From: Cerasicoccus arenae
GTDB taxonomy: Bacteria > Verrucomicrobiota > Verrucomicrobiia > Opitutales > Cerasicoccaceae
DNA length: 64,000 bases
Assembly (NCBI RefSeq): GCF_014651635.1
Contig: NZ_BMXG01000002.1
Coordinates: 62,001-126,000, forward strand
Reading direction: 5' to 3'
Shown here: one piece after another, positions 2,147-20,358 of the stretch
How the letters are laid out: the number at the start of each line of letters is the position of its first letter
Numbering within the stretch: the stretch's first letter is position 1
Made by a program: the position numbers and the translations under genes
The notes under the pieces: model-generated
Database searches by the model: none
Seen by the model: only the letters and a program-made list of their open reading frames with translations
What the model was told of the DNA's origin: nothing

Positions 2147-3099
2147 TGTAGGAGGCCCATTTTCTTCCAGAGGCGATGCTTCCAGCGGCCCAGATTGCCT
2201 TTCAAATGATTGGCCCAAGTGGATGTTGAGCCCCAGCGAAGCGATTGCTGTAAGCTGAATTCGCCCAAGCGAGAAATTTTTGCTTTTCGCTTACGAACGC
2301 AAATGGAATCCGTGAGATTAATCGCCATACTTGAGCTGACATCTTGCGTAAAGTTTTCGCCAGTCCCATCGACTCCTATATTTCTAACCAACGAACGACG
2401 CGGGCTAAGGCAGAGTCCATCTTGGAGGAAAATTGATGCCGCCCAGAAAATTGCCCACGTTTTTATGCGGCAACATTGGTTTTCGAGTAGCTGATTGGAA
2501 AACCCATTACAGCCGCCGAGATTAAATTGCTTGTGCATTTTCTCGGAAGCATTGATGTCAGCGATTAGCTTATCGACATCCCATCGCGCACGCTCCCATG
2601 AGTCTTCCCATGTGCCCCAACCCCAGCACTGCATGTAGCGCGTAAAGAAGGTTTCTGGAAGTAGGGACTCGTAAGGCGTCGCGTGACAATACGCATTAAT
2701 ATGGCGAACGGCTGGCGTTGATTCATAGGCAAAAAGTGCCGTGTTCATATATTCGAGGAATCCCGGTGAAGTCACCAAGTCATCTTCTAAAACAATGACG
2801 CGACCATGCCGATTAACGACTTCTGAAACGCCTCGCTTGATCGATTCTGCTAAGCCGAGGTTTATCCCGGCCTCAATGATTTCGACCTGCCCACACCATT
2901 GCTGAGAACGAATCAACTGGCGAACTTGTGCAACAGCACTCGCGGTAGATTCATTCTTGCTGGCGTCAGAGTACACATAAAGCTGTGTCTGATCGGCCAG
3001 CCGATTTTTAGCAAGAGCTTCTAGGGTTTGGCGAGTATGGTCGGGCCGCGCATAAACAAACAGGACGACTGGCGCTAGCTGTGAAGAGTCTGACATCAT
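2143..3099 (-). CDS. GT2/GNT-I-like glycosyltransferase
   Basis: 318 residues (or 317 from the second Met at 3096). The opening PVVLFVYARPDHTRQTLEAL, the central GLAESIKRGVSEVV and then VIVLEDDLVTSPGFLEYMN (acidic EDD triad) are the pattern of GT-A transferases related to the GNT-I/GT13-like group often annotated as sugar transferases in capsule clusters. The EDD should bind the metal and nucleotide-sugar diphosphate. The gene sits 29 bases after the epimerase gene and overlaps the next transferase by ATGA. The basic C-terminus (GRWKHRLWKK) may contact the membrane, which is inference. Acceptor and donor are unknown. Confidence 0.75.
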   Translation of the reverse strand: MMSDSSQLAPVVLFVYARPDHTRQTLEALAKNRLADQTQLYVYSDASKNESTASAVAQVRQLIRSQQWCGQVEIIEAGINLGLAESIKRGVSEVVNRHGRVIVLEDDLVTSPGFLEYMNTALFAYESTPAVRHINAYCHATPYESLLPETFFTRYMQCWGWGTWEDSWERARWDVDKLIADINASEKMHKQFNLGGCNGFSNQLLENQCCRIKTWAIFWAASIFLQDGLCLSPRRSLVRNIGVDGTGENFTQDVSSSMAINLTDSICVRKRKAKISRLGEFSLQQSLRWGSTSTWANHLKGNLGRWKHRLWKKMGLLQ

Positions 3100-3128: not shown

Positions 3129-4115
3129 TCAAGCCACGGGCTGGCCGTAGGATTTCAGGGCTTTGCGAATGCCTTCGCGGAAAGGAACCTTATACTCGAA
3201 GCCGAACTGTTTCTGTTTGGTGGTGTCACCGCCACGAGCGAATACGCCAGCAGGTTTGTCGGACAGGCCCACGACTTCCGGCTCATAACCACACTCTTCA
3301 GCGGCGATTCGTGCAAATTGTTTGAAGCTCGTGTAAATGCCAGTCGAAAGATTAACGGCATCGCCATCATCGATTTTATCAATGGTGGCCATCACGCCAT
3401 CGACGCAATCTTCGATGTATATAAAGTCGCGCATCTGGTCGCCTGTGCCCCAAACCGTAAGGGTCTCTTCGCCGATGTGCGCCATCGCGCGTTTGCAGAT
3501 GCTAGGGAACGGATAACTATCGTCCTGATCCTCACCATAGCCAGAGAAAGGGCGGTAGCAGGTGGATTTTAGCCCGTGCTTTTGGTAAGCAAGACGGGCG
3601 AGATATTCACAAGTAAGCTTGGCCCAGCCATAAGACATATCAGGCATGCCGATGTCATTATCGAAGGCGATCATATCCTCGCTAAGCAGCTCGTAGTTCT
3701 CCTCTCGTTGACGAGCAATTGGGTATGCTGCGCTGGAACTGAAGCAGGCGGTTTTGGCTGGGCGCGCTTTTTCGGCCCACTGCCAGTATTCCGCGTCGAT
3801 TGAAAGGTCGTCGGCGACTGCGAGTGGATGGTTTTCAATCATCGCTCTTCCGCCGACCATTGCGGCGAGGTGAAAGACGTAATCAAAATCGTCATCCGCC
3901 CGTTGTTTGAACCATTCGCGGCAATCTTGGCGATAGAAATTGAAATTTGGGAAATCGCGGGGAGAAAACAGTGGCCAACTGTTGTCCGGGTCGATACCAC
4001 CAGTGAATTCGGCAACTGGGTCTACGCAGTGAACCTCGGCTCCCTGATCCAGAAAACGTTTGCAGAATCGGCGACCGACAAATCCGGCGCCACCAGTGAT
4101 CAATACTTTTTGCAT
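3129..4115 (-). CDS. NAD-dependent epimerase/dehydratase, extended SDR
   Basis: 328 residues. TGGAGFVG at residues 7-14 is the Rossmann dinucleotide site, and SSSAAYP followed by SYGWAK gives the Ser/Tyr-x3-Lys catalytic set of extended SDR nucleotide-sugar epimerases. The segment YRPFSGYGEDQD and the later RDFIYIEDCVDG are also typical of the family. Its likely role is to convert a nucleotide sugar (UDP-, GDP- or dTDP-linked) into a donor for one of the flanking transferases. The substrate cannot be assigned. It lies one base or less from the upstream transferase stop (4116), so it is co-transcribed. Length is normal for the family. Confidence 0.85.
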   Translation of the reverse strand: MQKVLITGGAGFVGRRFCKRFLDQGAEVHCVDPVAEFTGGIDPDNSWPLFSPRDFPNFNFYRQDCREWFKQRADDDFDYVFHLAAMVGGRAMIENHPLAVADDLSIDAEYWQWAEKARPAKTACFSSSAAYPIARQREENYELLSEDMIAFDNDIGMPDMSYGWAKLTCEYLARLAYQKHGLKSTCYRPFSGYGEDQDDSYPFPSICKRAMAHIGEETLTVWGTGDQMRDFIYIEDCVDGVMATIDKIDDGDAVNLSTGIYTSFKQFARIAAEECGYEPEVVGLSDKPAGVFARGGDTTKQKQFGFEYKVPFREGIRKALKSYGQPVA

Positions 4116-5225
4116 TTAGCGTGTAGTGTTTTGGTTTACTTGAACTGATTCGTAAATATCGCAATACATACGGGCGCATTGAGCGGGCGTCCATTCATTC
4201 AAGGCCCGTTGACGATTTTTTTCCCCGAGATTTGTTTTTGCCAATTCAAATGCTTTTTCAAGCGCTTGCTTAGCAGTGGATGGATGCCCAGGGTCAAACA
4301 CGGGATTACCGGTTTCGCGAAGAAGCTCGCCGACGTCCCAGGAATCTGGTCCAACAACGATCTTACCGAAAGTCAGGCCAAGGGTGATATTGCCCGAATT
4401 AAGCACTTTGAGGCGGGGGATGAACAACACATCCGCGGCGTTCAAGTAGAGCTGAGCGTCCTCTTCCTGCACGAAGCTATAGTTGAAGTTATAGCTCGGA
4501 TGTAGCCGATAATAGAGTCGAGTGAGATCCCGCAGCCAATACTTTAGCCGGATCCATGAGACTTTGGCGAGCTTCTCGCGCCAGCGTGACACCAGCAGGA
4601 TTTTATCGCCGACTTGGGCACCTTGAAATGTGTTCATGATCAAATCGCGTTCTTCCATGCTGCGAATGGCACCAAAGACTAACATGACTTTCGCTTTTTC
4701 GGAGATTCCGAGCTGCTTCCTAGCCGCTTGCCGGGAAATGTTATTTGGCAGCGAGGCGTAGTTGGCATGAGGGATGATGACATGTTTGGGCTCAACACCA
4801 CGGTAAAAAACAGTGTTCGCGTAGCGGCTTTTGAACTCATCAATGCTTGCTTGGGCGAAATGAACAACCGCGTCTGCGTAGCGGTAAAAAAGTTCATACA
4901 TTCGCTCCCAAACTGGGTTTTTGACTGCGTCGTGGGGCAGAAGGACGTGTCTGGTAATGACGATGTGTGAGCGGTCAGCCCAATGCTTTAGTCGCACTGC
5001 CACTTGCTCGACGAGTTCTTCGGTGAGCCCTTCTTGATAGGCTTTCTCGATTTCATGGGTAACGTATTCTGGGAAGTGCAGGTGGACGACATTGAAGTCG
5101 CCTTCCTGATTCCAGAATGTCTCGTGCGAATGCACGATTGTGACATCGTTTTTTTCCATGGCCTCGTGTAGGTCGACGAGGAATCGATTTCCAGGAAGCG
5201 GAATATTGGCGACAAGAATCTTCAT
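4116..5225 (-). CDS. GT-B glycosyltransferase
   Basis: 369 residues from MKILVANIPLPGN. A frame extends to 5258, but that would overlap the upstream gene, which stops at 5227. The ATG at 5225 follows that stop directly. The N-terminal domain contains VVHLHFPEYV and the C-terminal domain contains VMLVFGAIRSMEERDLI and AADVLFIPRLKVLNSGNITLGL, the arrangement of GT-B transferases distantly related to GT4 and beta-mannosyl/glucuronosyl-type enzymes. The classical E-x7-E is not obvious: an NSGNITLGLTFG stretch occupies its place. Function within the polysaccharide operon is assigned by context; the sugar is unknown. Confidence 0.75.
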   Translation of the reverse strand: MKILVANIPLPGNRFLVDLHEAMEKNDVTIVHSHETFWNQEGDFNVVHLHFPEYVTHEIEKAYQEGLTEELVEQVAVRLKHWADRSHIVITRHVLLPHDAVKNPVWERMYELFYRYADAVVHFAQASIDEFKSRYANTVFYRGVEPKHVIIPHANYASLPNNISRQAARKQLGISEKAKVMLVFGAIRSMEERDLIMNTFQGAQVGDKILLVSRWREKLAKVSWIRLKYWLRDLTRLYYRLHPSYNFNYSFVQEEDAQLYLNAADVLFIPRLKVLNSGNITLGLTFGKIVVGPDSWDVGELLRETGNPVFDPGHPSTAKQALEKAFELAKTNLGEKNRQRALNEWTPAQCARMYCDIYESVQVNQNTTR

Positions 5226-5226
5226 C

Positions 5227-6378
5227 CTAGTGGTGTGACTTTTTTCGAGCATCATCAATGACTGACTGTAATCGATGTATATGCTGTTGGCTGTTGAAAT
5301 TATTTTTAGTATGCTTGCGTGCTGCTGAACCCATTTGTCGGCAGAGTTCAGGATTACGGAGTAGGTGACTCATGTGAGCGCCCATGGTGTCGACATCCAG
5401 TTCGTCAACGAGCATGCCTGTTTTGCCTTCTATCACGACATCTTTTATACCAGCGTGTCGAGTACTGACTATCGGGAGCCCAGCCGCGGCTGCTTCAAGT
5501 ATGGTATTGGGCGTGCCCTCGGCGTCTCCGTAAGATGGGATCACGGAATGCTGGGCGAAGCAGCAGGCATTGGCAAAATATTGAGCGATCTCCTGATGTG
5601 GAATGGCACCCTTGAAAATGACGTTTTTCTCAATGCCCAAAACTTTGGCCAGAGTAATACATGTTTCGAGAAGCTCGCCGTCACCGATCTGGACTAGCTG
5701 AGCATTTGGCACCTCTTTAAGCGCTTTGCTAAAGGCCAATAGCGTCAGATGATTCGCTTTGATGTTCGTAAACCGGCCGACTGATAAAACGATTGGCTGA
5801 TAGCTGGATTGGATTTCATAAAATGAATCCCGTGGCCCGTAGGGATTGTAAACCAGCTTCTTTTCATTGCATCCAAGTCCGGCAAGGGCATCGATCATGA
5901 ACCGAGAGACGCCGAGTACGCTATGCGCATAGTCGAACATTGCGCAATATTTCGCAAGCCGCTCCGGAGTCAACTCTGGCTGGCGATGTGCATCATGCCC
6001 GTGGAAATGCACGATTAGGGGGATGCCAAGCTGCTTCGCAATCGGTGTGATCGCGGCTCCGGTTGCCCCAAACTCAGCCAAGATTACATCGACATTATGA
6101 CTGGCAAAAAAGCCTCCCAATGCATCAAGGACTGCGGGGGGGGATAATTCCTTGGCTGTAATCAGACGATGATAGAGTGCTTGTGGCAGGAGTCTCGCGG
6201 CTTTTTTCAGGAATGGTTTTTGGCTATAAAAATAGCGAATGGTCTTTCCCTGATAGGCATAGTCTGGATACGCGCGACTGACGCAGACTTTTTCTCCGCT
6301 GAGGGACTCTACGTGGATTCGAATAAAGTCCTTAATGACTTTATTGTCGTCAAATCCAACAATGCAGGTTGTTCCCAT
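5227..6378 (-). CDS. Family 4 glycosyltransferase, WcaL/AmsK-like
   Basis: 383 residues. N-terminal half has VDVILAEFGATGAAITPIAKQLG and LIVHFHGHDAH, and the C-terminal half has VLSVGRFTNIKANHLTLLAF and EGTPNTILEAAAAGLPIVST (E-x7-E), a pattern I associate with colanic-acid-type GT4 enzymes such as WcaL and AmsK. The donor sugar is not inferable. A G8 run on the plus strand at 6136-6143 encodes the Ser-Pro-Pro of SPPAVLD. The frame is intact through it. Stop and start spacing to both neighbours is 1-4 bases, so translation is probably coupled. Confidence 0.87.
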   Translation of the reverse strand: MGTTCIVGFDDNKVIKDFIRIHVESLSGEKVCVSRAYPDYAYQGKTIRYFYSQKPFLKKAARLLPQALYHRLITAKELSPPAVLDALGGFFASHNVDVILAEFGATGAAITPIAKQLGIPLIVHFHGHDAHRQPELTPERLAKYCAMFDYAHSVLGVSRFMIDALAGLGCNEKKLVYNPYGPRDSFYEIQSSYQPIVLSVGRFTNIKANHLTLLAFSKALKEVPNAQLVQIGDGELLETCITLAKVLGIEKNVIFKGAIPHQEIAQYFANACCFAQHSVIPSYGDAEGTPNTILEAAAAGLPIVSTRHAGIKDVVIEGKTGMLVDELDVDTMGAHMSHLLRNPELCRQMGSAARKHTKNNFNSQQHIHRLQSVIDDARKKSHH

Positions 6379-6381
6379 CCT

Positions 6382-7680
6382 TTAGCTCTCCTGTTTCGAT
6401 TGATGCAGAAACATGCGTTTAATTTTTCCAGCGAACATACGGCTGCGAACAATGCGGCGCTTGAGGAATGTAGCGATAAGCTTTTCACGCTGCCCCGCAT
6501 TATTTAGCTTATCGTTCTCTGCGGGCAGGGATATCCAACATGGAATGCTGATATTGCCTGGTCGTCGCCAATGCTTAATCTGATCGCGAAACGTCTCAGC
6601 CCATAGATCCGCACCAATGTCTTTGGTGTATTCACGGCGTATTTTATCTCGGCTTTCATTGGAAAATTTTTGCCAGAGCACGGGATCGTTGACCAGTTGT
6701 TGAATCGCCTTCGGGAGTGCATCCGGAGCGTCATCGAGAATGAATCCGTTAACGCCATCTTCAATCAATTCAGGGATACCGCTCTTATTGTAACGACAAA
6801 CTGGAACGCATCCGCACGCCATTGCTTCCATGATCGCGATGGGTAGCCCTTCATAGTCAGACAGCAGGACAATAACATGGGATTCCCGCATCTTATCCTG
6901 AACTTGCTGGCTTGGTACGGCCCCCCCAAGATAAACTGAGAGGCCGCTCCCTTCTTTGGCTAGAATTGCCGCAACTTCTGCCTTTTCCGGGCCATCACCA
7001 TAGATAATCGCTTCGACACTCGGCAACTGTTTGACAGTGCGGCAAAATGCCCGAGCAAGATCTTGGATGCGTTTCTGCTCGGTCACGAGGCGTCCGAAAA
7101 ACGCGATGCGGAATTTGCCGTGTGGAGGAGCGACAAACTGATCAACGACAGGCGCACCATAGGGGATACGATAGACTGAGGTGTCGCGCGTTTTACAGTT
7201 AGTTAACTGCTGTTCCAGTTCGCGCGAGACGCCGACCATTCCAGTAAGTCGGTGGGACTTTTTTCCGGCGACAAATTCTTCCTGCAGGCCGTCGCAGTAT
7301 GCGTGATCGGAATGTAGAATTCCCACCGTTGCAATGCCTGCTTTGCGTATCCAACGGCAAGCGTAATAGGCGGATGTAACGACATTGGGAAAGAAGATGT
7401 CTGTCGGCTTTGCTTTAAGCTGTTCGAGCGTCCACCGGATGCTGTCTTCAGTAGTTAGTGGATTAATGGTCTTGGAGTATTCGATGCCATTCTCATCGAG
7501 GAAATTGATGAGGGGGCCTTCGCCCAAATGCATGTAGACCAAGCAGCGAATACGGAAACCACGCTCAATGAGTGCAGGCATCAACCATAGTAACCATGAC
7601 ACGGGGCCACCGATAATGCCTGGCTTATCAAATGCGCAAATGGTGATGAGAGGCTTGCTGGAATCGATTGCCATTATCAA
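6382..7680 (-). CDS. Family 4 glycosyltransferase
   Basis: 432 residues, ATG at 7680 overlapping the stop of the upstream gene at 7677. ICAFDKPGIIGGPVSWL near the N-terminus is the acceptor-side glycine loop, RIAFFGRLVTEQKRIQDL starts the donor-binding domain, and YEGLPIAIMEAMACGCVPV is the E-x7-E signature. A basic C-terminal tail (KRRIVRSRMFAGKIKRMF) could associate with the membrane. It is a cytoplasmic retaining transferase of the polysaccharide operon with unknown donor. A second in-frame ATG at codon 3 is a possible start. Confidence 0.87.
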   Translation of the reverse strand: MIMAIDSSKPLITICAFDKPGIIGGPVSWLLWLMPALIERGFRIRCLVYMHLGEGPLINFLDENGIEYSKTINPLTTEDSIRWTLEQLKAKPTDIFFPNVVTSAYYACRWIRKAGIATVGILHSDHAYCDGLQEEFVAGKKSHRLTGMVGVSRELEQQLTNCKTRDTSVYRIPYGAPVVDQFVAPPHGKFRIAFFGRLVTEQKRIQDLARAFCRTVKQLPSVEAIIYGDGPEKAEVAAILAKEGSGLSVYLGGAVPSQQVQDKMRESHVIVLLSDYEGLPIAIMEAMACGCVPVCRYNKSGIPELIEDGVNGFILDDAPDALPKAIQQLVNDPVLWQKFSNESRDKIRREYTKDIGADLWAETFRDQIKHWRRPGNISIPCWISLPAENDKLNNAGQREKLIATFLKRRIVRSRMFAGKIKRMFLHQSKQES

Positions 7681-8864
7681 TTGTCTTGGGCCTCAGCCAG
7701 TATTTCTCGGACTTTCGACAAGCTAGGTTCGGCGTAAACGATGTCCAACGTTTTTGCGACTTGTCGCCAGTCGTATTCTTTTAAAACGCGGTTCCGGGAT
7801 TCAGTACAGCGATTGGTGTCGACGAGAGCATCACGCGTTTTCTGAGCAAGGTCTAAGATGTTATCTGGCTCGTAGACAAAGCCGTAGCGGCCATTATCAA
7901 TTGCCTCCAAGCATCCTGCTTCCTCTGGGACGACAATTGGTTTCCCGTGTGTCATTGCTTCAAGGACTAGCGTTGGCAATCCTTCTCGCTTGCTCGTGAC
8001 AACGACTGCCGCACTCGCGGCGATAGCGTCCTGAACGCCTCGATGGTCTGTGGCTCCGTAGATGGATACGTTGCTGGGCGTTTCCTGATTAAACTCGCTC
8101 AGCATCGTTTCTGCGCTGAGCCCTTGACCAAGCATAACAAATGAACGCTCTGGCATTTGTTGGGCCAATTGCACAAATGCGGCTGGGTTCTTGACTGGGT
8201 CGTTGCGCCCGACATAGAGAACGAAATCGTTCTGCTGTGTTTTCTTTACGAAGCGTTCCGCGCAACCTAGATCGCAGTTTTCTACATCGACGCCATTGGG
8301 CAAGTAATAGGTTTCAATACCATTTTGATTACGTAAATCATCCCGTTGCCACTTTGCGACGGAGAGCCTGATGTCGGCCTGCGGCGCTTCATGCAGCAAA
8401 GCTTCATTGATTTGCTCCTGCCATGGCTCTAAGCCAACTTTGCCATGCTCCGGGAAGTAATTGAGGTGGTAAGTGTGTATCCAGCGTATCCCATTTTTCT
8501 GAGCATTATGGCCCCAGTGAATCATCCAAGGAAAGACGTGAGAGTGAATCGCCAGACACTGATTCGGGACATACTGGATCAGCTCCTCCCGTAGGTGTGG
8601 GGGGATATTATCGAAGCCCGGAAAGGCTTGCTCGTTCGGCGTTAATTCCACACGCAGCTTTGAGTGCTTTTGAATGGCCATCAGGTGATGGCGGATTCCG
8701 CCGAAGCTCAGATTGACTCCGGCAAATACCTGTGGATGAGTTTGAGCAAGTCGAGCCATCCAAGCCGCGTATAGCTTTTGTTCATGGGCACGTTTATGAT
8801 GAAACTTGCGCATTGCTAGCTTGTGCTGCGCAAATTTCCGGTAGCCCGCGAACTTCTCTGACAA
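7677..8864 (-). CDS. Family 4 glycosyltransferase, TTG start
   Basis: 395 residues if begun at the TTG at 8864-8862; no upstream ATG is available before the previous stop at 8894, and an ATT three codons earlier is the only other candidate. The first 40 residues are very basic (KFAGYRKFAQHKLAMRKFHH), then NLSFGGIRHHLMAI forms the glycine loop, IRWIHTYHLNYF and VLYVGRNDPVKNPAAFVQL mark the two GT-B domains, and KREGLPTLVLEAMTHGKPIVVPE is the E-x7-E motif. Function: sugar transfer in assembly of the exported glycan; specificity unknown. The basic leader probably attaches the enzyme to the inner membrane surface, which is inference. Confidence 0.84.
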   Translation of the reverse strand: MSEKFAGYRKFAQHKLAMRKFHHKRAHEQKLYAAWMARLAQTHPQVFAGVNLSFGGIRHHLMAIQKHSKLRVELTPNEQAFPGFDNIPPHLREELIQYVPNQCLAIHSHVFPWMIHWGHNAQKNGIRWIHTYHLNYFPEHGKVGLEPWQEQINEALLHEAPQADIRLSVAKWQRDDLRNQNGIETYYLPNGVDVENCDLGCAERFVKKTQQNDFVLYVGRNDPVKNPAAFVQLAQQMPERSFVMLGQGLSAETMLSEFNQETPSNVSIYGATDHRGVQDAIAASAAVVVTSKREGLPTLVLEAMTHGKPIVVPEEAGCLEAIDNGRYGFVYEPDNILDLAQKTRDALVDTNRCTESRNRVLKEYDWRQVAKTLDIVYAEPSLSKVREILAEAQDN

Positions 8865-8893: not shown

Positions 8894-10060
8894 TTAGCTA
8901 GCTTTCTGGATGAGGCGGAAAAGGAATTCGTTCATGCCTTGGATCGAGAAGCTTGTTTTGATTCGCTGTAGATTGGCCGCTCCAAGTTCCTTTCGTAATG
9001 CCTCGTCATGCAGGAGCGTATTTATCTTATCAGCGAGGTCAACCGGGTCATGAGGCTTGGCGTAGACCAGTTCAACGTGATCGTCGCCCAAGGCCTGACG
9101 AATACCAGATATGTCGGTTCCAACAACCGCGCGGCCTAGCGCCATTGCTTCGCAAACTGCATTCGGGCAACCTTCTTTTATCGAGCTATGAACGACTATG
9201 TCGGACTCATAAAGCAGTTCGTTGGTCGTATCGATTGGGCCCAGAAAGCGGACAGAATCTCCCAGGCCAAGGTCGAATGCCAAGGCTTTTAATCCTAAAA
9301 CGTGCTTTGCGTCTAGCAGATGCCCAGCTAAAGCCAATATCGGAAGAGGGAGGGATGTCGTGCGCGCCGATTTGATGACTAGGCTCCAGGCCCGAAAAAG
9401 CGTATCATGGTCTTTAAACGGGATAATGTTTGCGACCATTGAAACCAATAACTGGTTTTGTTTGACGCCAATTTTATCCCGCCAGATTGGCTTTAGCTTG
9501 TGTGCTTCGGGAATCGGTGTGCCGTTGTTGTAAACAACGATGTTTTCATACGGGATGTCGTAATTTTCGCTGATAAATTCAGCGCCTGCACGTGAATTAG
9601 AAGTTATGTGGACGGCATTATTCAGTGCTCGTTGTTCCATCTTGGATTTAAATAATCCTCTCCCTTCGTCCTGTTGATTCCACCAGATGTAGTGCGCGCC
9701 CGTCCATTTCCAAATAAGGCAGACTGGCTTGCTGTGGACAGAAACAAAAGGGAGAATGACATCGGGTTTGATCTGATGCCGAATGAATTGGGCAAGCTGA
9801 TACAGCATTAAGAATTTTCGCCGTCCAGTCTTTTTCTCATTGTAAGGGAAATGAAAAATTTCGCAGCCCAACTCTCGTAGTGGCATTGTTAATGGCCCTT
9901 CGCCAAACCAGCCGAGCACCGCAACGGGTACGTTGAGTGTTGTGCGGAGGTATTCAATGAAATGAAACGCCTGTCGCTCGGCCCCACCCATGTGATGGAA
10001 ATTGCCAAGAACGATTAGATACCGACACTGATTTGTTTGATTATCTAAAGAGGCCGTCAT
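8894..10060 (-). CDS. Family 4 glycosyltransferase
   Basis: 388 residues. VLGNFHHMGGAERQAFHFI is the classical GT4 N-terminal loop (GGAER), LVSMVANIIPFKDHDTLF begins the donor domain, and SIKEGCPNAVCEAMALGRAVVGTD carries E-x7-E. A retaining GT-B transferase of the polysaccharide operon. The ATG lies one base after the stop of the sulfotransferase-like gene (10062), and the next gene follows after about 30 bases, the widest spacing among the inner genes of this operon together with 3100-3128. Donor and acceptor cannot be stated. Confidence 0.88.
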   Translation of the reverse strand: MTASLDNQTNQCRYLIVLGNFHHMGGAERQAFHFIEYLRTTLNVPVAVLGWFGEGPLTMPLRELGCEIFHFPYNEKKTGRRKFLMLYQLAQFIRHQIKPDVILPFVSVHSKPVCLIWKWTGAHYIWWNQQDEGRGLFKSKMEQRALNNAVHITSNSRAGAEFISENYDIPYENIVVYNNGTPIPEAHKLKPIWRDKIGVKQNQLLVSMVANIIPFKDHDTLFRAWSLVIKSARTTSLPLPILALAGHLLDAKHVLGLKALAFDLGLGDSVRFLGPIDTTNELLYESDIVVHSSIKEGCPNAVCEAMALGRAVVGTDISGIRQALGDDHVELVYAKPHDPVDLADKINTLLHDEALRKELGAANLQRIKTSFSIQGMNEFLFRLIQKAS

Positions 10061-10061
10061 C

Positions 10062-11063
10062 TCAAATTCCTAACAATTGCTTAACTCGTGACTTGAATGA
10101 ATGAATCACTCGTTGTGAAGCAGTTTTGCTCGGCGTGGCTGTGTTTTTTTGAGGGGCGTAGAATTCTTCTTCCCAACTTTTGATCATTGCGATGCCTTCG
10201 GGTGTTAATTTTTTCTCAGCCGAATCAATTTCCTGATTAAACATCTCAACTCCATATTCCTGGGCCAGAGATTTACCATTCAGAGACGGCTCCCAATTGG
10301 GGTTGTCTTCCGGTAGGTTGAGGAATTTTTGTAGTTTACTATGCAGCAATTGAGGGTTGTTCACGACATCCTCAAAATTGATTAGCAATACCTTTTCAGG
10401 AAAACGCGCAGCATATTCTTTGGCCACTTTCTGGCGTTCAAAAATTTCAAAGACCATCTTACGATCGATTCCTAAGTCGCCCATCATTGAGCGTATTCCC
10501 TCGACTGGCTTGCGCTGGCTGATCGACGCCATAATGCCTTGTGCTGAGCGCAACATATAGATGAGCGAAAAATCGAAATCGTTTGATTCCAAGTGCCTGA
10601 ATATCGTTCCGTCATTACCCTCTAGTGCTACAATCGTATGAATATCTTCTACGGCTTGTTTTCCTAGATGATGCTTGATCAGAGTCTCATAAAGGGTGTC
10701 GAAAATGAAATTGAAGTTCCAGTCAGAGCCTTGGCGTAGTTTATTGAATAGCTCTAAATCGAAATCCTGAAATGAGAATTTGAAAGGTTCGAGATGGACA
10801 TTCTCTCTTGAGAAATAGAAAGGAAAATGCCCCAGGTGGGAAAATGTTTCCAAGCGGTAATAGCCGTTGGCGCAAATGCTGGATCTCAGGGCAAAGGTTT
10901 CTCGTTCGCGAAGCCAAGTTTGCTCAGTCAACGCGGCTTTATTGATGCCAGAAAATGCATTGAGCTGGAAGAAATCGACATAGTGCCCGGGCGTATTGTC
11001 CAAGGTGTACGCGGCCATGCCTTTGCCGGACCCCCACCAACCATCAATGGCAACGTATCTCAT
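10062..11063 (-). CDS. P-loop sulfotransferase-like protein
   Basis: 333 residues. The N-terminus carries a P-loop-like GWWGSGKG at residues 8-15, in the place where sulfotransferases bind the 5'-phosphosulfate of PAPS. DFSLIYMLRSAQGIMASIS at about 185-203 resembles the 3'-phosphate-binding strand-helix (RxP..xxS), and VLLINFEDVVNNPQLLHSKLQKFLNLP near 235-260 matches the usual C-terminal YEDL-type segment followed by the xxFLGLP helix. Together these support a carbohydrate sulfotransferase-like fold; a kinase is the alternative. If correct, the exported polysaccharide would be sulfated. Its ATG overlaps the TAA of the cytidylyltransferase gene (TAATG), a sign of coupling. Confidence 0.6.
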   Translation of the reverse strand: MRYVAIDGWWGSGKGMAAYTLDNTPGHYVDFFQLNAFSGINKAALTEQTWLRERETFALRSSICANGYYRLETFSHLGHFPFYFSRENVHLEPFKFSFQDFDLELFNKLRQGSDWNFNFIFDTLYETLIKHHLGKQAVEDIHTIVALEGNDGTIFRHLESNDFDFSLIYMLRSAQGIMASISQRKPVEGIRSMMGDLGIDRKMVFEIFERQKVAKEYAARFPEKVLLINFEDVVNNPQLLHSKLQKFLNLPEDNPNWEPSLNGKSLAQEYGVEMFNQEIDSAEKKLTPEGIAMIKSWEEEFYAPQKNTATPSKTASQRVIHSFKSRVKQLLGI

Positions 11064-11812
11064 TAACCTTTCAGGTCGGAGTAATGATAGAAATCGTTTG
11101 GCTGGATCGAGTTGAGATACCAGACGCTAGCGGCGATATCAATCCACGTGTGTATATCGCGACCGGTCACCCAAGGCCGTTCGATCATCCTGCAACGCTC
11201 ACCGAGCCACACCCAAGGCGTTGGCCCTTTTTGCTCGATCGCACACTCTTTTTTGAACCCCCAAATACCTTGATCGTAAAAGAAAACATCGGGATACGCC
11301 TGTCGGTTTGATCCTGCTTCAACGTTAAGGAACGATTCCATGAAGCCGTCTTCGTTGCACTTCATTGCGCGGTAGGGGTGATCATCCTGAGCCTTCCAGG
11401 CAGTGAGGACTGAATCACAACTGCCATCGTCGAGTAGTTCAAATGCGCGGTCAATAATCCCTGGAGTCACCATTACCGTATTGCCGAGTAGGATAATGAC
11501 ATTCTCCAACTCGGGGTGCAGCAGGGTCACGGCTTCCACGGCATGCTTAATAACGTCTTTGTGCAGTGACGATGATTGGCTCAGTTCAGCGGGACGATCG
11601 ATAATTTCCGCTCCTTCCATCCGAGCAATGTGCGAAATGTAAGGATCTTCTGTCGTTACATAAATGGCTTCACAGTGGCGTGAATGTTTGGCTGCTCGGA
11701 GTGGGTAAGACATGACTGGCACGTTCTGTACCGGTATGACGTTTTTGTTACCTACGCTATGGTTGCCGCCTTTTGCAGTCAGGATTACGGCGTTGCGAAT
11801 TGGTTTGGACAT
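11063..11812 (-). CDS. NeuA-like acylneuraminate cytidylyltransferase family protein
   Basis: 249 residues. VILTAKGGNHSVGNKNV at residues 9-25 is a variant of the RGGSKGIPxKN nucleotide-binding signature of CMP-sialic acid/CMP-Kdo synthetases; the usual Arg is a Lys. VYVTTED-like and SVLTAWKAQDDHPYRAMK are in the expected places (the latter matches the VxxxxxHPxxxxK region), and TWIDIAASVW is near the end. It should activate a nonulosonic-type acid as its CMP derivative for the transferases downstream. No neuB- or neuC-type synthase is in the window, so the substrate's origin is unknown. Confidence 0.75.
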   Translation of the reverse strand: MSKPIRNAVILTAKGGNHSVGNKNVIPVQNVPVMSYPLRAAKHSRHCEAIYVTTEDPYISHIARMEGAEIIDRPAELSQSSSLHKDVIKHAVEAVTLLHPELENVIILLGNTVMVTPGIIDRAFELLDDGSCDSVLTAWKAQDDHPYRAMKCNEDGFMESFLNVEAGSNRQAYPDVFFYDQGIWGFKKECAIEQKGPTPWVWLGERCRMIERPWVTGRDIHTWIDIAASVWYLNSIQPNDFYHYSDLKG

Positions 11813-11833: not shown

Positions 11834-13093
11834 TTAGTTCCAATTAGCTGGTTGAAGAATGGCTGCCGCGGTTGTGGATATGCCCTCTACTTGCAGTGAA
11901 ACGATATTATCATGACGGCAATAAACCATTGATTGGTCGACGGATGTCGCGACCGCACTCAGGAAGTAACGGCCACAATTCAGGTGCAGGGGAGGGCATT
12001 CAATTTTTAGAACAACTTCTTGTTTTCCGGTTTCCTTAAAATTGACAACGCGCCCTTGGTAGTCGGCATTTATGATATTAACGACTGGCAGCATATCCAT
12101 GTTCCAGATGGTGATCTGAAAGCGTGCACTTTGCACCTGTTCAGTGGCCTTCACCCTCAGCTCGATATACAGTCCTTGAGCGTGTGAAATCTGTAGTTCA
12201 CTGGATGTGCTGCTCGCTGATTCAATGCTCGTGCCAGCCTTAATCAGGTTAAATTGAATGTCCCGCGTGCCGCTGATCATGGCTTCTCCGCCGCCGCACA
12301 TTGAGTAATACTTTTCAATTCCAAGCCCGACGTTGCCACCGTTGTATGTGCTTTTTCCGTGATCCATCAGCAGGATTTGGCTGCAGACACGTGCGACTTG
12401 AGGCATGGAGTGAGACACAAAAATCACGGCTGATTTGCTTAATATTCCAGCCATTGCGTTGACACATTTATGGCGGAACGCGATATCGCCTACGGCGAGC
12501 ACTTCATCGAGCAATAGAATATCTGGCTCCATTTGAATCGCGACGGCGAATCCCAAGCGAACTTTCATCCCGGAGCTATAGTTTTGAACGGGCATATCAA
12601 TGAACTGATCCAGCTCAGAGAAGGCTACAATTTCGTCCAGTTTCTCGTCGATTTCCTTCTTGCGAATGCCGAGCAGTGCGCCGGAATTATAGATGTTTTC
12701 TCGGCCAGTGAGAATAGGATTGAATCCGGCACCGAGCTCAATCAATGCACATACTCGGCCACGCATGCGTATGTGGCCAGTGTCTGGTTTGATCAAGCCA
12801 TTGAGTACTTTGAGGAGCGTGCTCTTGCCTGCGCCATTGTGCCCGATTAGGCCAACGCACTCACCTCGCCGAAGTTGGAAACTGATGTTTTGAATTGCCC
12901 AAAATTCATCTTTTCTAAGCTCAGGGATTTTATTTCTACTGTCAGAAATACCCGTTTTGAGCAGAGGGTTCATGGCCCGCACGATGTCTTTGGCTCCGTA
13001 CATGAGGGAACGCTTGAGCGAGCGGCAGAATTTCTTCCCGACCTGGTGTACGTCGATCAGGACATCGCTATCGTTTGGCAAATGAGAACCCAT
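11834..13093 (-). CDS. ABC transporter ATP-binding protein for polysaccharide export (Wzt type)
   Basis: 419 residues. Walker A GHNGAGKST at 84-92, ABC signature YSSGM at 172-176, Walker B DILLLDE at 191-197 and H-loop His228 form a complete ABC ATPase. Residues from about 270 form the extra beta-rich C-terminal domain characteristic of Wzt proteins, which in O-antigen systems recognises the modified end of the finished chain. It powers export of the undecaprenyl-linked glycan across the inner membrane together with the permease encoded one base upstream. The position of this pair at the head of the operon fits an ABC-dependent (not Wzx/Wzy) assembly route. Confidence 0.93.
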   Translation of the reverse strand: MGSHLPNDSDVLIDVHQVGKKFCRSLKRSLMYGAKDIVRAMNPLLKTGISDSRNKIPELRKDEFWAIQNISFQLRRGECVGLIGHNGAGKSTLLKVLNGLIKPDTGHIRMRGRVCALIELGAGFNPILTGRENIYNSGALLGIRKKEIDEKLDEIVAFSELDQFIDMPVQNYSSGMKVRLGFAVAIQMEPDILLLDEVLAVGDIAFRHKCVNAMAGILSKSAVIFVSHSMPQVARVCSQILLMDHGKSTYNGGNVGLGIEKYYSMCGGGEAMISGTRDIQFNLIKAGTSIESASSTSSELQISHAQGLYIELRVKATEQVQSARFQITIWNMDMLPVVNIINADYQGRVVNFKETGKQEVVLKIECPPLHLNCGRYFLSAVATSVDQSMVYCRHDNIVSLQVEGISTTAAAILQPANWN

Positions 13094-13094
13094 A

Positions 13095-13937
13095 TCAGGA
13101 AGATAGTCGTTCGATGAGATAAGGAACGGCGATTTTATAGGCCAAAATCGCGAAGCACAATGCGATCAGCGTTATTATGCTCAGCAGAATAAATGGCTGT
13201 AGCATGATTGGCCCTTCGCCAAGTAGCCAACTGCGGCTCGTCACCAAAAGAGGGGTGACGGGATTGACGTCACTGATAAACTTTGCGAGTCCAGCAGCCG
13301 GCAATGGGTAAACGACTGGGGTGACGAAAAAACCGAACTTTAGAATCAACTGAACACCTCTGCTGACGTCGCCGTAAAGTGTGGCAATTGGCAATAGGAG
13401 TATGGCGATCGTTGCGCCAAACAAAATCATTACGATGACCCCGAGTGGAAAAAGTAACATCGTGGCATGAAACTCGTTCACATAAAAAGGGAGCACCGGG
13501 ATAAGTATGACCAATGGGAGCATGGCATTTACCGCCGACTTCCCAAGGGCTGTGAGGAGCAGGGCTTCGTGTGGAAAGTTAATCTTCGACAGGAGGGCAC
13601 GGGATTCATTCACCGTATTCAACATGCTGGTGAGGGTCGCGTTAAAGGCCGTCCACAGGAGATTGCCTGTCAGCACAAAGGCAGGGTAGGAGATGCCACC
13701 AGTGTCGACCTTGATGACGTCCTGGCTGTTTAAATACACCCAGATCAAAGTATTGGCGATTGGAGGCAAAAATATCCAAATATAGCCGAGAATGCTCTGC
13801 CGATACATCGCACGCATATCTCGGATAAACATGCGCGTAGCTAGCTCCCACGTCAGACTGGCATTCTTCCGCATGTTCCGTATGCTATGACGGATCGAAA
13901 GAATTCCGTCTTCCGGCGTGATTATCGTTTCTTGCAT
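13095..13937 (-). CDS. ABC-2 type polysaccharide export permease (Wzm type)
   Basis: 280 residues with an amphipathic, charged N-terminus (about 45 residues) followed by six hydrophobic segments. The motif FIRDMRAMYRQSILGYIWIFLPP before the first membrane segment is typical of Wzm/KpsM/TagG-like ABC-2 permeases. It forms the channel for lipid-linked polysaccharide with the Wzt-type ATPase encoded immediately downstream (one base between stop and start). It is the first gene of the minus-strand operon; a good promoter lies about 125 bases upstream of its ATG. Confidence 0.92.
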   Translation of the reverse strand: MQETIITPEDGILSIRHSIRNMRKNASLTWELATRMFIRDMRAMYRQSILGYIWIFLPPIANTLIWVYLNSQDVIKVDTGGISYPAFVLTGNLLWTAFNATLTSMLNTVNESRALLSKINFPHEALLLTALGKSAVNAMLPLVILIPVLPFYVNEFHATMLLFPLGVIVMILFGATIAILLLPIATLYGDVSRGVQLILKFGFFVTPVVYPLPAAGLAKFISDVNPVTPLLVTSRSWLLGEGPIMLQPFILLSIITLIALCFAILAYKIAVPYLIERLSS

Positions 13938-14241: not shown

Positions 14242-15096
14242 TTAGTGGGTAATCTGGCCGAGTAACGAAGTCACTTCGTCTGTGAATTGCTCCAGAATTT
14301 CGCTGATGAATACCTCAACGGTTAGTGTGTCGTCTTGAATCAATGGTGTGAGATCAATCGCGTAGGCGGCACGCTGGCAGGCGTCGACTGAGTGAGAGTC
14401 GAAATAGGTGGCATTGGCGCAGTGTCGCCCTTCTACGGCGAGATCGTAACGCTTGCCGCCCGCAATTTGGGAATCGAATACCCCGGCCAGAGCCGCAGCA
14501 AGGTTGGGGTGGGCGTCGACTGGCTGAATGACCTTTAGGTGATCGGGCAGCCAGTCCAGCCCGCGCCAGACTTCACAGCCGAACAATTGTTGCGGGCGTT
14601 CGTTTTGGGGCAATCGTCGGATAGCCTCAAGCAGCGCGATCAGGACGCCGATGTGGGTGGCATGTTTGTCAAAGGGCTGATGCGTGTAGACAGCCTGAGG
14701 GCGTGTAAAGAGCAAGAGCGTTTCCAGATCGTCCACCAGTGGTTGGCGCTGGGTGGGTGCCTTGGCAGTAGTGCTCGGGTGACCAAGTTGCGCCATAAAA
14801 CTGTATTGGCCAATAGTGGCGGCGACTTTTTGCTCATGCACGCGGACGCGCTTCATCTCGGAGTCTGTGTAGTTAGCATAAGGACCGCTGCGTGCACTCC
14901 CCCCCCCATCAGTGCAGGTGACGCCACCGAACCACTGATCCGCGCGTTGAAAGCACTCAAGGATGCCGTGTAGGGCCATGAACTCAAGGTCGTCTTGGTG
15001 GGCACCTACGCCCAGATGCGTCGTACGCTCCAGCGCGTTTGCTTCGGCTTCGTGGTCTGGAATGAAGAGGTCTTGATTATTCAGTCGAAATTTCAT
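14242..15096 (-). CDS. PIG-L family deacetylase
   Basis: 284 residues. The metal and catalytic motif appears as GAHQDDLE at 31-38 (canonical AHPDDE: metal His and both Asp kept, Pro replaced by Gln) and the second metal site as HATH at 145-148. PIG-L/LmbE proteins hydrolyse N-acetyl groups from N-acetylglucosamine derivatives. The ATG overlaps the TGA of the upstream NagB-PIG-L fusion gene (ATGA at 15096-15093), so the two are translated together, pointing to amino-sugar metabolism. The actual substrate is unknown. A C9 run at 14899-14907 on the plus strand encodes the Gly-Gly-Gly of CTDGGGSA; the frame is intact. Confidence 0.8.
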   Translation of the reverse strand: MKFRLNNQDLFIPDHEAEANALERTTHLGVGAHQDDLEFMALHGILECFQRADQWFGGVTCTDGGGSARSGPYANYTDSEMKRVRVHEQKVAATIGQYSFMAQLGHPSTTAKAPTQRQPLVDDLETLLLFTRPQAVYTHQPFDKHATHIGVLIALLEAIRRLPQNERPQQLFGCEVWRGLDWLPDHLKVIQPVDAHPNLAAALAGVFDSQIAGGKRYDLAVEGRHCANATYFDSHSVDACQRAAYAIDLTPLIQDDTLTVEVFISEILEQFTDEVTSLLGQITH

Positions 15097-16997
15097 GAGC
15101 GGAATCGTTTGAAGCCTTCGATGGCTTCGTATTCAGCAAGGCCAAGGGCGTCGTATGCTTGCGCGGTGGCGCGGTTAAGGGCGCTGGCGAGGTTCCAGGA
15201 ATTGGCGTCCTGTTTACTGCCACCGGGCGACTGACTGCGCTGGGTCTGATGTTGGTAAATACCTTTGATTTTAAAGTCGAGCTCATCAGGGGAGAGGGGC
15301 ACGGCCATGTCCATTTCATGGATTTCCCATTCGACTCCCGGGCCGCGATAGAGCCAGATCCAGCAGTCTTTTAGCCAGTCCGCTCCGGCGCACGCACGCA
15401 AAGCGATTTGTAGGACTTCGAAGCTCAGTGCGGGGACTGAGAGTGGGTCGTGCCCGTGGCCAGTGGCAAAAATTTGGTGCGGTCGAATCTCATTGAGTAA
15501 CGTAACCATCGCCGCGACGTCAGCCTTGGTGATCTGGAAACGCCGGTAGCGTCCTGTTTCGTAAAAAGGCAGGTCTAAGAAGCGTAACTGGGCCGGATCG
15601 ATACCGAGCAACCGGGCAGAGGAGCGTGCTTCGCCGCGGCGGATGAGGCCCTTGAGACGACGTAAATCAGATGAGTCTTCGCCAAACTGGCCTTTGGCGT
15701 CGAGTTGCTGCTCCACCTTGCGCGCAAAGTGCACCTCGGCCACGTCGTCGAGGCGTTCGCCAAGTTCGATGATTAGTTCAATGGAGCGTCGGACGTCGGT
15801 GTCGGGCACCGCGAGGTTACCCGAAGTCAGGTAGGCGACAGTCAGTTGGTGTTTTTGGTTGGCCAAGCGGTGGAGGACGCCGCCCATGCAGAAGACATCG
15901 TCGGTCGGCTCGGAACTGAGCACGAGGGAACGTTTCGGGAAGGGGATGCGGCGTTCGGGCCGATAGGAGTCATCGGCGTCTGGCTTGCCGCCGGGCCAGC
16001 CCGTAATCGTGTGTTGGGTCGTGTTAAAAATCCGGATGTTCAGGTCGTAGGCTGAACCTTTCTCGGTCAACAGGTCGGCCATGGCGTTTTCTGTATAATC
16101 CTCGTCGGTGAGGCGGAGCAAGGGCTTGTTAGACTTCTGGGCAAGCCAGACAACGGCCTTTCGTGTCATGGTTTCTGTCCAATCTACTGGTCCAACTAGC
16201 CAAGGGTAGCGCAAACGGGTGAGGTGGCTGGCAGCGGCCTCGTCGACACAAAACACACAATTGGGGTGGCCTTGCAAAAAGCTTGCAGGGATGGACTCAG
16301 AGGGGGGGGCTTCGACGGACTCCGCGATGACGCGGGCTTTGGCCTCCCCCCAAGCGAGTAGGAAAATCTGCCGTGCGTCGAGAATCGTGCCAACCCCCAT
16401 CGTGATGGCGTGCCGGGGAACATTTTCTTCACCCAGAAAGTCGCGTGCGGCGTCACGGCGCGTCAGACTGTCGAGTGTCACAAGGCGGGTGCGGGATTCA
16501 GGTCCTGAGCCGGGTTCGTTAAAGCCAATATGTCCTGTGCGGCCGATGCCCAGAATCTGAATGTCCAAGCCGCCTGCCTCACGCATGGCGGCTTCATAGT
16601 CTGAACAGGACTCGAAGACTTCGTCCTTTGCTGCGAGGCCATCGGGCACGTGTGTGTTCTCCGGAAGGATGTCTATATGGTCAAAAAGCTGGTCCTGCAT
16701 GAACCGGCGGTAGCTCTCGGGGTGGTCGCCGGAAAGGCCGTAATATTCGTCGAGATTGAAAGTGATTACACGCTGAAAAGACAGACCCGCCTGACAGCGG
16801 CGGATGAGTTCGCGGTAAAGTCGCACGGGGGTGGAACCGGTTGCCAGACCAAGCACGGTCGGTTGTCCAGCGGCATTACGTTCGCTAACGAGGTCGGTGA
16901 TGGCATCGGCGACATAGGTGCAGGCTTGGTCCGCCGATGGATAGATTTGCGTCGTGATGACTTCGCGTTGCGTGTAGCTAGGGGCACCGTTCTTCAT
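15093..16997 (-). CDS. Glucosamine-6-phosphate deaminase-like/PIG-L fusion protein
   Basis: 634 residues. Residues about 14-275 are NagB-like: GLATGSTP at 50-57 (phosphate loop), NLDEYYGL at 81-88 (the Asp matching E. coli Asp72) and GIGRTGHIGFNEPGS at 150-164. In E. coli NagB the last segment reads GxGxDGHIAFNEP: here His156 and Glu161 are kept but the catalytic-triad Asp is Thr154. Residues about 355-634 are PIG-L-like, but the zinc motif is SSEPTDDV at 361-368, where the metal His is Glu and the first Asp is Thr. NagB converts glucosamine-6-phosphate to fructose-6-phosphate and ammonia; whether this protein does so is uncertain. Such long two-domain proteins are known, especially in Bacteroidota. 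Confidence 0.8.
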   Translation of the reverse strand: MKNGAPSYTQREVITTQIYPSADQACTYVADAITDLVSERNAAGQPTVLGLATGSTPVRLYRELIRRCQAGLSFQRVITFNLDEYYGLSGDHPESYRRFMQDQLFDHIDILPENTHVPDGLAAKDEVFESCSDYEAAMREAGGLDIQILGIGRTGHIGFNEPGSGPESRTRLVTLDSLTRRDAARDFLGEENVPRHAITMGVGTILDARQIFLLAWGEAKARVIAESVEAPPSESIPASFLQGHPNCVFCVDEAAASHLTRLRYPWLVGPVDWTETMTRKAVVWLAQKSNKPLLRLTDEDYTENAMADLLTEKGSAYDLNIRIFNTTQHTITGWPGGKPDADDSYRPERRIPFPKRSLVLSSEPTDDVFCMGGVLHRLANQKHQLTVAYLTSGNLAVPDTDVRRSIELIIELGERLDDVAEVHFARKVEQQLDAKGQFGEDSSDLRRLKGLIRRGEARSSARLLGIDPAQLRFLDLPFYETGRYRRFQITKADVAAMVTLLNEIRPHQIFATGHGHDPLSVPALSFEVLQIALRACAGADWLKDCWIWLYRGPGVEWEIHEMDMAVPLSPDELDFKIKGIYQHQTQRSQSPGGSKQDANSWNLASALNRATAQAYDALGLAEYEAIEGFKRFRS

Positions 16998-19608: not shown

Positions 19609-20358
19609 ATGAGTGTAAAAGCCGACCATTCAAGTGACGCAAAGATTGATCCTGCTCCCGCTCTGACGCGTGGTTTGGCGCTGCTTGCTATTTTGGGGCG
19701 TGATGGGCAGAGCTCACTGGAAGCGTTGGTGCGGAAGACTGGTTGGCCAAAGTCGTCTGTATGGCGCTATTTACAGGCCCTAGAGTCTTTGGGGGCTGTG
19801 CATCAAGACGATGGATCAAAGCTTTGGGAAGCGCGGCAGGCATTAAGATCGGTCGCTAGCCTAGAGAGTCTGGCGCTCGAAGAGGCGCGCCGGATTTTGC
19901 CCGTTTGGGCGAAGGAAGTGAAATGCTGCGTAGAGCTTTATCGCGTGGGCGTTGCCTCTTTGGTGCTAATTGATAGAGCCGAACCAGAAGACGAAATTGT
20001 ATCGATACGTGCGCGGATTGGTTTTCAGCGCGATCTAGAGGAGTTGGAGGCCACGGTCTTAATTTATTTCGCTTTCCAGAATATGGTGCTACCCGAAGCC
20101 AATACATGGGTATGGGATGAGGGGCGGAAGCGCAAGGTCGATCCATCTGCTGCCGCAATGCGTATTAATGAAGCCCGCACTTTCAATTGGGCGCAGGACA
20201 ATGATTTTAATGAATTTGGCATCCGCCGCTTTGCTTGCCCGATACTCGATGGCGATCAGCTCGTTGGTGTGATCGCCATTGCGCAAAGGCAGACGCCACG
20301 TGCTGAGCGGGACAAGCTGCTATTGATAGAAACCATCCGAACCAACCTTAACCCATGA
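19609..20358 (+). CDS. IclR-like transcriptional regulator
   Basis: 249 residues from ATG 19609 (MSVKADHSS); an in-frame ATG at 19570 would add 13 hydrophobic and aromatic residues that do not look like part of a regulator. Residues about 15-75 form a winged helix-turn-helix (ALTRGLALLAIL ... SLEALVRKTGWPKSSVWRYLQALESLG), the IclR pattern. The C-terminal part ends FACPILDGDQLVGVIAIAQ, like the end of the IclR effector domain. The stop overlaps the ATG of the sulfatase gene by four bases (ATGA), so the regulator and sulfatase are one unit. It probably controls sulfatase and perhaps the neighbouring uronate operon; the effector is unknown. Confidence 0.75.
   Translation: MSVKADHSSDAKIDPAPALTRGLALLAILGRDGQSSLEALVRKTGWPKSSVWRYLQALESLGAVHQDDGSKLWEARQALRSVASLESLALEEARRILPVWAKEVKCCVELYRVGVASLVLIDRAEPEDEIVSIRARIGFQRDLEELEATVLIYFAFQNMVLPEANTWVWDEGRKRKVDPSAAAMRINEARTFNWAQDNDFNEFGIRRFACPILDGDQLVGVIAIAQRQTPRAERDKLLLIETIRTNLNP

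Follow-up and report, generated by a model that had tools for sequence, protein, structure and literature searches.

What might a gene for a sulfotransferase-like protein and a gene for a cytidylyltransferase-like protein contribute when both lie between the exporter and the glycosyltransferases of a polysaccharide operon? The question is raised by a locus of Cerasicoccus arenae. We analysed bases 62001-126000 of contig 2, a stretch of 64,000 nucleotides called the window below, in a genome of 4.13 Mb (63 contigs, 97.6% complete).

The gene pair and its operon

The initial annotation had described a sulfotransferase-like gene and a NeuA-like gene at 10062-11812, coupled by TAATG and placed between exporter and transferases. 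Both reading frames are there with one base in common, and the placement holds, with Wzm/Wzt upstream and a run of glycosyltransferases downstream. The features are as follows.

10062..11063, minus strand: 333-residue protein with a predicted sulfotransferase fold and an abnormal donor loop, DGWWGSGK, at residues 7-14 (Pfam, hhalign, predicted fold)
11063..11812, minus strand: 249-residue cytidylyltransferase-family protein of a distinct subfamily with LLGNT, AQDDHPYRA, YDQG and GRDIH (Pfam, signatures)
11834..13093, minus strand: Wzt-type exporter ATPase with a Wzt_C domain (ABC_tran 88.4 bits; Wzt_C 42.5 bits, cut-off 30.4)
13095..13937, minus strand: Wzm-type exporter permease (NCBIfam match below cut-off; relatives in genomes G196, G070 and G040)
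8894..10060, minus strand: GT4-type glycosyltransferase, the first gene after the pair
7677-8864, 6382-7680 and 5227-6378, minus strand: three more GT4-type glycosyltransferases
4116..5258, minus strand: 380-residue protein with no Pfam match above cut-off, glycosyltransferase-like by a weak match alone
3129..4115, minus strand: NAD-dependent epimerase/dehydratase family protein
2143-3099, minus strand: GT2-family glycosyltransferase
950-2218, minus strand: GT4-type glycosyltransferase

The one-base overlap of the pair reads TAATG (coding strand ...GGTTAATGAGA). A Wzt_C ATPase, a permease and adjoining glycosyltransferases stand together, as in a Wzm/Wzt polysaccharide operon. The intergenic gaps in the minus-strand run from the permease (13937) to base 3 are only -76 to +29 bases, so that a single operon is plausible. 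The permease had no match in the Pfam scan and scored 46.5 bits with NCBIfam galactan_ABC_perm, far below the cut-off of 380; it is 35-37% identical to its relatives in G040 and G070. Just upstream of the exporter operon lies a long reading frame (15093-16997) that resembles a fusion of glucosamine-6-phosphate deaminase and PIG-L deacetylase, overlapped by a second and presumably PIG-L-like frame (14242-15096).

It had also been suggested that the C-terminal domain of the Wzt-type protein recognises a capped chain end, and the Klebsiella domain reads the chain terminus, according to an excerpt of PMC11231755. Between the window Wzt and those of G196, G070 and G040, however, the ATPase part is 57-60% identical and the C-terminal domain only 14-16%. 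A common cap is therefore improbable for clusters that have one gene of the pair in common; the suggestion gained no support, and we no longer counted the Wzt domain in favour of such a cap. The Kdo-terminated, ABC-exported O antigens of Klebsiella O4 and O12, as described in the same excerpt (PMC11231755), resemble the window system in this Wzt domain and in having a CMP-activated sugar, which is probable here. They differ in that no Kdo transferase was recognised in the window operon.

Fold of the 333-residue protein

The 333-residue protein scored 14.5 bits with PF00685 (cut-off 22) and 12.6 bits with a second Pfam sulfotransferase model (cut-off 27), both below threshold, and no sulfotransferase match was found in NCBIfam. 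On the other hand, a profile of this protein and its relative from Verrucomicrobia UBA6053 (G196) aligned by hhalign with three Pfam sulfotransferases at 97.2% probability (E 2.9e-11). A first model, built on an alignment that included recognised sulfotransferases (pLDDT 58.9), had a sulfotransferase as its best Foldseek match (E 6.6e-5) and gave sulfotransferase matches by VIA (Z 14.4-12.4, rmsd 3.3-5.1, 172-215 aligned residues). Since the sulfotransferases in that alignment could make the fold match circular, the protein was refolded with the UBA6053 protein alone. This control model was poorer (pLDDT 48.8), and its residues 1-116 were under pLDDT 50, so the donor loop is not confidently modelled; still, all of the best 50 PDB rows of Foldseek (best E 4.5e-4) and all of the best 50 rows of VIA (Z 9.6-7.7, rmsd 3.5-4.8, 167-200 aligned) were of the sulfotransferase family, in which we presumed Teg12/14 and retinol dehydratase to belong.

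Structure prediction had been set beforehand as the test of the proposed resemblance, and it returned a sulfotransferase fold and not a kinase or unrelated fold. The resemblance is real at the level of fold by hhalign, Foldseek and VIA. The likeness of the 333-residue protein to sulfotransferases is weak by Pfam and firm by profile comparison and modelling. The protein shares with PAPS-dependent sulfotransferases (PF00685, PF13469) the overall fold, the C-terminal half, the LDxxP motif after the loop and the 3'-phosphate-site Arg. Its nearest solved folds are tyrosylprotein sulfotransferase, SULT and the CurM sulfotransferase domain. It departs from them in having DGWWGSGK in place of [KR]xGTT, sub-threshold Pfam scores and one clear relative.

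A changed donor loop

The usual donor (5'-phosphosulfate) loop of sulfotransferases is [KR]xGTT, in which the basic Lys or Arg is catalytic. We observed this loop in the sulfotransferase of contig L055 and in the canonical sulfotransferase of the genome itself. The window and UBA6053 proteins have the identical loop DGWWGSGK, with Gly aligned to the basic residue and Lys, three places on, to the first Thr. Thus the catalytic residue is gone and a Walker-A-like Lys appears. R172, which we take to be the 3'-phosphate-site Arg of PAPS sulfotransferases, is kept in both proteins, and S180, presumably the Ser of that site, is present in the window protein and missing in UBA6053.

One reading of these changes is that the donor itself has changed: the Walker-A-like loop would bind an NTP and phosphorylate a sugar or chain end, and the cytidylyltransferase would supply or use the partner sugar. 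A phosphate cap formed in this way would be akin to the methyl-phosphate terminators found in other Wzm/Wzt systems, and some ABC-exported glycans have termini made by kinases, as the excerpt of PMC11231755 describes. The Lys is present in both proteins, GWWGSGKS of UBA6053 fits the Walker-A pattern GxxxxGK[ST], and the Foldseek list of the first model includes kinases, adenylate kinases among them, at rank 19 and below. The window sequence GWWGSGKG, however, has Gly at the Ser/Thr place, and the 3'-phosphate-site Arg is retained. The hhalign match of the pair profile with the APS kinase of the genome, the one kinase compared, reached 14.3% over 19 residues and covers the loop alone. No kinase was among the best 50 Foldseek rows of the control model or the best 50 VIA rows of either model, an absence that by itself excludes nothing. 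We consider a changed donor unlikely, and the missing Ser/Thr and weak APS kinase match led us to reject a plain Walker-A kinase for the window protein. As donor of the 333-residue protein we rank PAPS first and NTP second.

A non-canonical loop is not unique to these two proteins. Pfam sulfotransferases of Rhodospirillaceae (L053:9989-10918) and Gottesmanbacteria (L054:9983-10906), 48% identical to each other, have the loop ENGGNT and lack the basic residue, and the L089 sulfotransferase has His at its position. The gene following the Gottesmanbacteria sulfotransferase is of the phosphotransferase family (APH). The GSGK loop was seen in the window and UBA6053 proteins only.

Distribution of the 333-residue protein

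The only clear relative of the protein is that of UBA6053 (26% identity, E 3.8e-17). Searches of the order (177 genomes) and the class (384 genomes) found the protein itself alone, and a search of the phylum (387 genomes) found it and that of UBA6053. In the phylum 59 genomes gave matches at E<=10, and the remaining matches, all at E>=0.019, were set aside. The two-protein profile also found a Pfam sulfotransferase in G528 (E 9.3e-5). In the collection of genome contigs, the single query gave 21 stretches with no relative, and the alignment gave 23 stretches with four, namely UBA6053 itself and three Pfam sulfotransferases without GSGK. Plasmids yielded one match to the window protein (E 0.8, inside a transposase) and none to the UBA6053 protein, and phages yielded no match to the window protein. 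Viral contigs gave 1 stretch with the single query and 41 with the alignment, with no relative in either. A DNA pattern for DGWWGxGK matched viral contigs five times and none was kept, four being in frames of 11-31 residues and the fifth amid an unrelated 539-residue frame.

Such a sparse distribution, together with the loss of the canonical basic loop residue and a gene G+C of 44.3%, the lowest in the run (operon neighbours 48.0-52.8%), would suit a laterally acquired sulfotransferase that is decaying or already inactive. This seems very improbable to us, because the reading frame is intact, eight loop residues are identical in a protein of only 26% overall identity, and the type of partner and the one-base overlap recur in two distant genomes.

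The cytidylyltransferase belongs to its own subfamily

The 249-residue protein passes the Pfam cut-offs of CTP_transf_3 (28.2 bits, cut-off 22.6) and NTP_transf_3 (29.4 bits, cut-off 27). Relatives with 66-67% identity are encoded in G040 and G070, and relatives with 42-48% identity in G417, G180, G453 and G238, the last with two copies of the gene, each a 147-residue piece. Rows of at least 42% identity were taken as bacterial members, leaving out those of 26-32% (G117, G319, G397, G300, G099 and others). A viral collection contains nine more members (L108-L116) at 37-45% identity, with match positions near base 8001 except in L110 (293) and L112 (7833). Terminase in L108 and major head protein in L109, L113 and L116 are encoded nearby, so at least four of these contigs look like real phages. 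The viral-collection members look like a phage-carried cassette for an activated sugar. Among plasmids (nine records, 27-30% identity) and phages (one record, 27.6%) only distant relatives were found.

To compare signatures, we set 15 members (6 bacterial and 9 viral-collection; the G238 pieces excluded) against eight comparators, three of which are NeuA-HAD proteins. GRDxH was found in 15/15 members, [YF]DQG and LLGN[TS] in 14/15 each and QDDHPxRA in 12/15; each was found in 0/8 comparators. In a quick FastTree the eight comparators group together, apart from the 15 members, with support 0.988. Thus, as judged from its sequence, the 249-residue protein is a member of a distinct CTP_transf_3 subfamily and not an ordinary NeuA. 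It has the same domain as NeuA and PseF (PF02348) and, like them, a KN motif at the nucleotide site, and it differs in its own LLGNT, QDDHPxRA, YDQG and GRDxH.

The initial annotation had read this gene as an orphan NeuA, a CMP-acid synthetase, and had seen no nonulosonic-acid synthase in the window. The latter was confirmed and extended: NeuB (PF03102) is missing throughout the genome, which is 97.6% complete. The former was not supported. Of seven genomes with the subfamily, three have no NeuB (the window genome G000, G238 and G417), two have it on a different contig (G180; G453, at only 29.3 bits) and two have it nearby (G040 and G070). In these last two, the 66-67% relatives lie in operons with their own NeuB and, beside it, a separate NeuA-HAD. 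The seven genomes are 88-99% complete, so the absences of NeuB are not absolute.

An ordinary CMP-nonulosonate synthetase, acting on a scavenged acid or accompanied by a NeuB lost in assembly gaps, would account for PseF being its best NCBIfam match (77.7 bits, short of the equivalog cut-off of 205.7) and NeuA proteins its best PDB matches (E 3.9e-16). The genome being 97.6% complete in 63 contigs leaves room for such a gap, and viral-collection contig L112 carries both the subfamily gene and NeuB. We nevertheless hold this explanation to be rather unlikely, as the subfamily has signatures of its own and its members do not track NeuB and coexist with NeuA-HAD. On these same grounds an ordinary NeuA identity was rejected, and the label of an orphan nonulosonic-acid synthetase is probably wrong.

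Neighbouring genes favour instead a CMP-sugar with its own route. In G180, L111 and L112 a 2-hydroxyacid dehydrogenase and an NAD-epimerase precede the subfamily gene (G180 has a cyclase-HAD protein in between, and L111 a short frame). It adjoins a GT29-family gene in L116 (28.6 bits, cut-off 23) and an MptE-like/DUF115 gene in G040 (35.8 bits, cut-off 34.6). Against such a sugar stand the NeuB gene of L112 and the fact that no CMP-sugar-dependent transferase was recognised in the operon of the window. Elsewhere in the same genome (contig 16, L009:11838-16573), a second cluster contains two further CTP_transf_3 genes around an MptE-like gene (31.2 bits, below the cut-off of 34.6). Next come genes for a SIS-domain protein and a 2-hydroxyacid dehydrogenase, and a frame that reads as a Gfo/Idh-type oxidoreductase.

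The pair in other genomes and the supply of sulfate

In UBA6053, too, the gene of the P-loop protein overlaps the end of a preceding cytidylyltransferase gene by one base (TGATG), in an operon that further contains Wzm, Wzt, NeuB and NeuA-HAD. The partner there is of another subfamily, 15-16% identical to that of the window. Two examples with different partners suggest a functional link that is not tied to one sugar, although two is a small number. Ordinary sulfotransferases occur near window-type cytidylyltransferases, directly after Wzt and one gene away in G040, and two genes away in G417; none was present in the neighbourhoods read in G070, G180 and G453.

The genome has an APS kinase gene on contig 5; the genes after it read as cysD and the beginning of cysN. 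It has two PAPS-reductase-family genes in total, so PAPS may also serve sulfate assimilation. One canonical sulfotransferase is encoded on contig 23 (88.3 bits, loop FRSGTT). A frame at 20355-21863 of the window presumably encodes a sulfatase; the organism may therefore also remove sulfate from glycans.

An acidic glycan with sulfate had been called unusual for this phylum. This is weakened by Pontiella (Kiritimatiellae, Verrucomicrobiota), for which an excerpt of PMC7356697 describes sulfated glycosaminoglycan-like exopolymers and candidate sulfotransferases. Cobetia has an ABC-exported sulfated capsule, and both Kdo and sulfate are said to occur in its polymers (excerpt of PMC11766843). Vibrio likewise has an ABC-exported sulfated capsule (excerpt of PMC11641403). 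As far as these excerpts go, all three systems have a sulfotransferase gene in the polysaccharide locus, as here, and the Cobetia and Vibrio capsules share the ABC exporter with the window locus (PMC11766843, PMC11641403). Cobetia and Vibrio keep PAPS genes within the cluster, whereas the APS kinase of the window genome is on another contig, and no cytidylyltransferase pair is reported in the excerpts for Cobetia, Vibrio or Pontiella (PMC11766843, PMC11641403, PMC7356697). Within the open-licence PMC papers searched, nothing was found on the gene pair, the GSGK loop or the cytidylyltransferase subfamily.

Discussion

We propose that the pair would be a decoration module inside a Wzm/Wzt ABC-exporter polysaccharide operon. 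The 249-residue enzyme would make a nucleotide-activated sugar, most likely a CMP-sugar, that is not a NeuB product. The 333-residue enzyme, translated from the last base of the preceding gene, would be a strongly diverged member of the sulfotransferase fold and most likely would take sulfate from PAPS and, before export, attach it to that sugar or to the chain. For this proposal as a whole we see somewhat better than even chances. Sulfate transfer by the 333-residue protein is likely, and the pair probably gives the exported polysaccharide an unusual decoration; we infer CTP as the nucleotide of the 249-residue enzyme, PAPS as the donor of its partner and a glycan as the acceptor.

In its favour we counted the fold, the kept R172 and S180, the APS kinase and canonical sulfotransferase of the genome and the recurrent one-base overlap, as well as the sulfotransferases near the subfamily in G040 and G417 and, for a CMP-sugar, GT29 (L116) and MptE-like/DUF115 (G040). 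Against it we counted the missing basic loop residue, the sub-threshold Pfam scores, the lack of the 3'-site Ser in UBA6053 and the unconfident loop of the control model, as well as the small number of examples of the pair, two, with different partners. Further points against it are that no CMP-sugar transferase was recognised in the window operon and no sulfotransferase in the neighbourhoods read in G070, G180 and G453.

A bolder view, which we regard as doubtful, is that a branch of the sulfotransferase fold has swapped its PAPS loop for a Walker-A-like one and uses an NTP or the nucleotide sugar of its partner as donor in capping or decorating polysaccharides that leave by an ABC exporter. 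The partner would then represent an undescribed, NeuB-independent subfamily of CMP-sugar synthetases common to bacteria and phages. If the fold does use another donor, this would be a change of chemistry rarely met among sulfotransferases. The changed loop is the very feature by which the family is usually identified, and such proteins score too low to pass family models. As for the cytidylyltransferase subfamily, it indicates an activated sugar other than NeuB products that is encoded by both bacteria and phages. Most likely, however, the role is the familiar one, the decoration of an exported polysaccharide, performed by unusual members of their families. On this ordinary reading, the locus would be a further candidate on the short list of sulfated, ABC-exported polysaccharides of Verrucomicrobiota.
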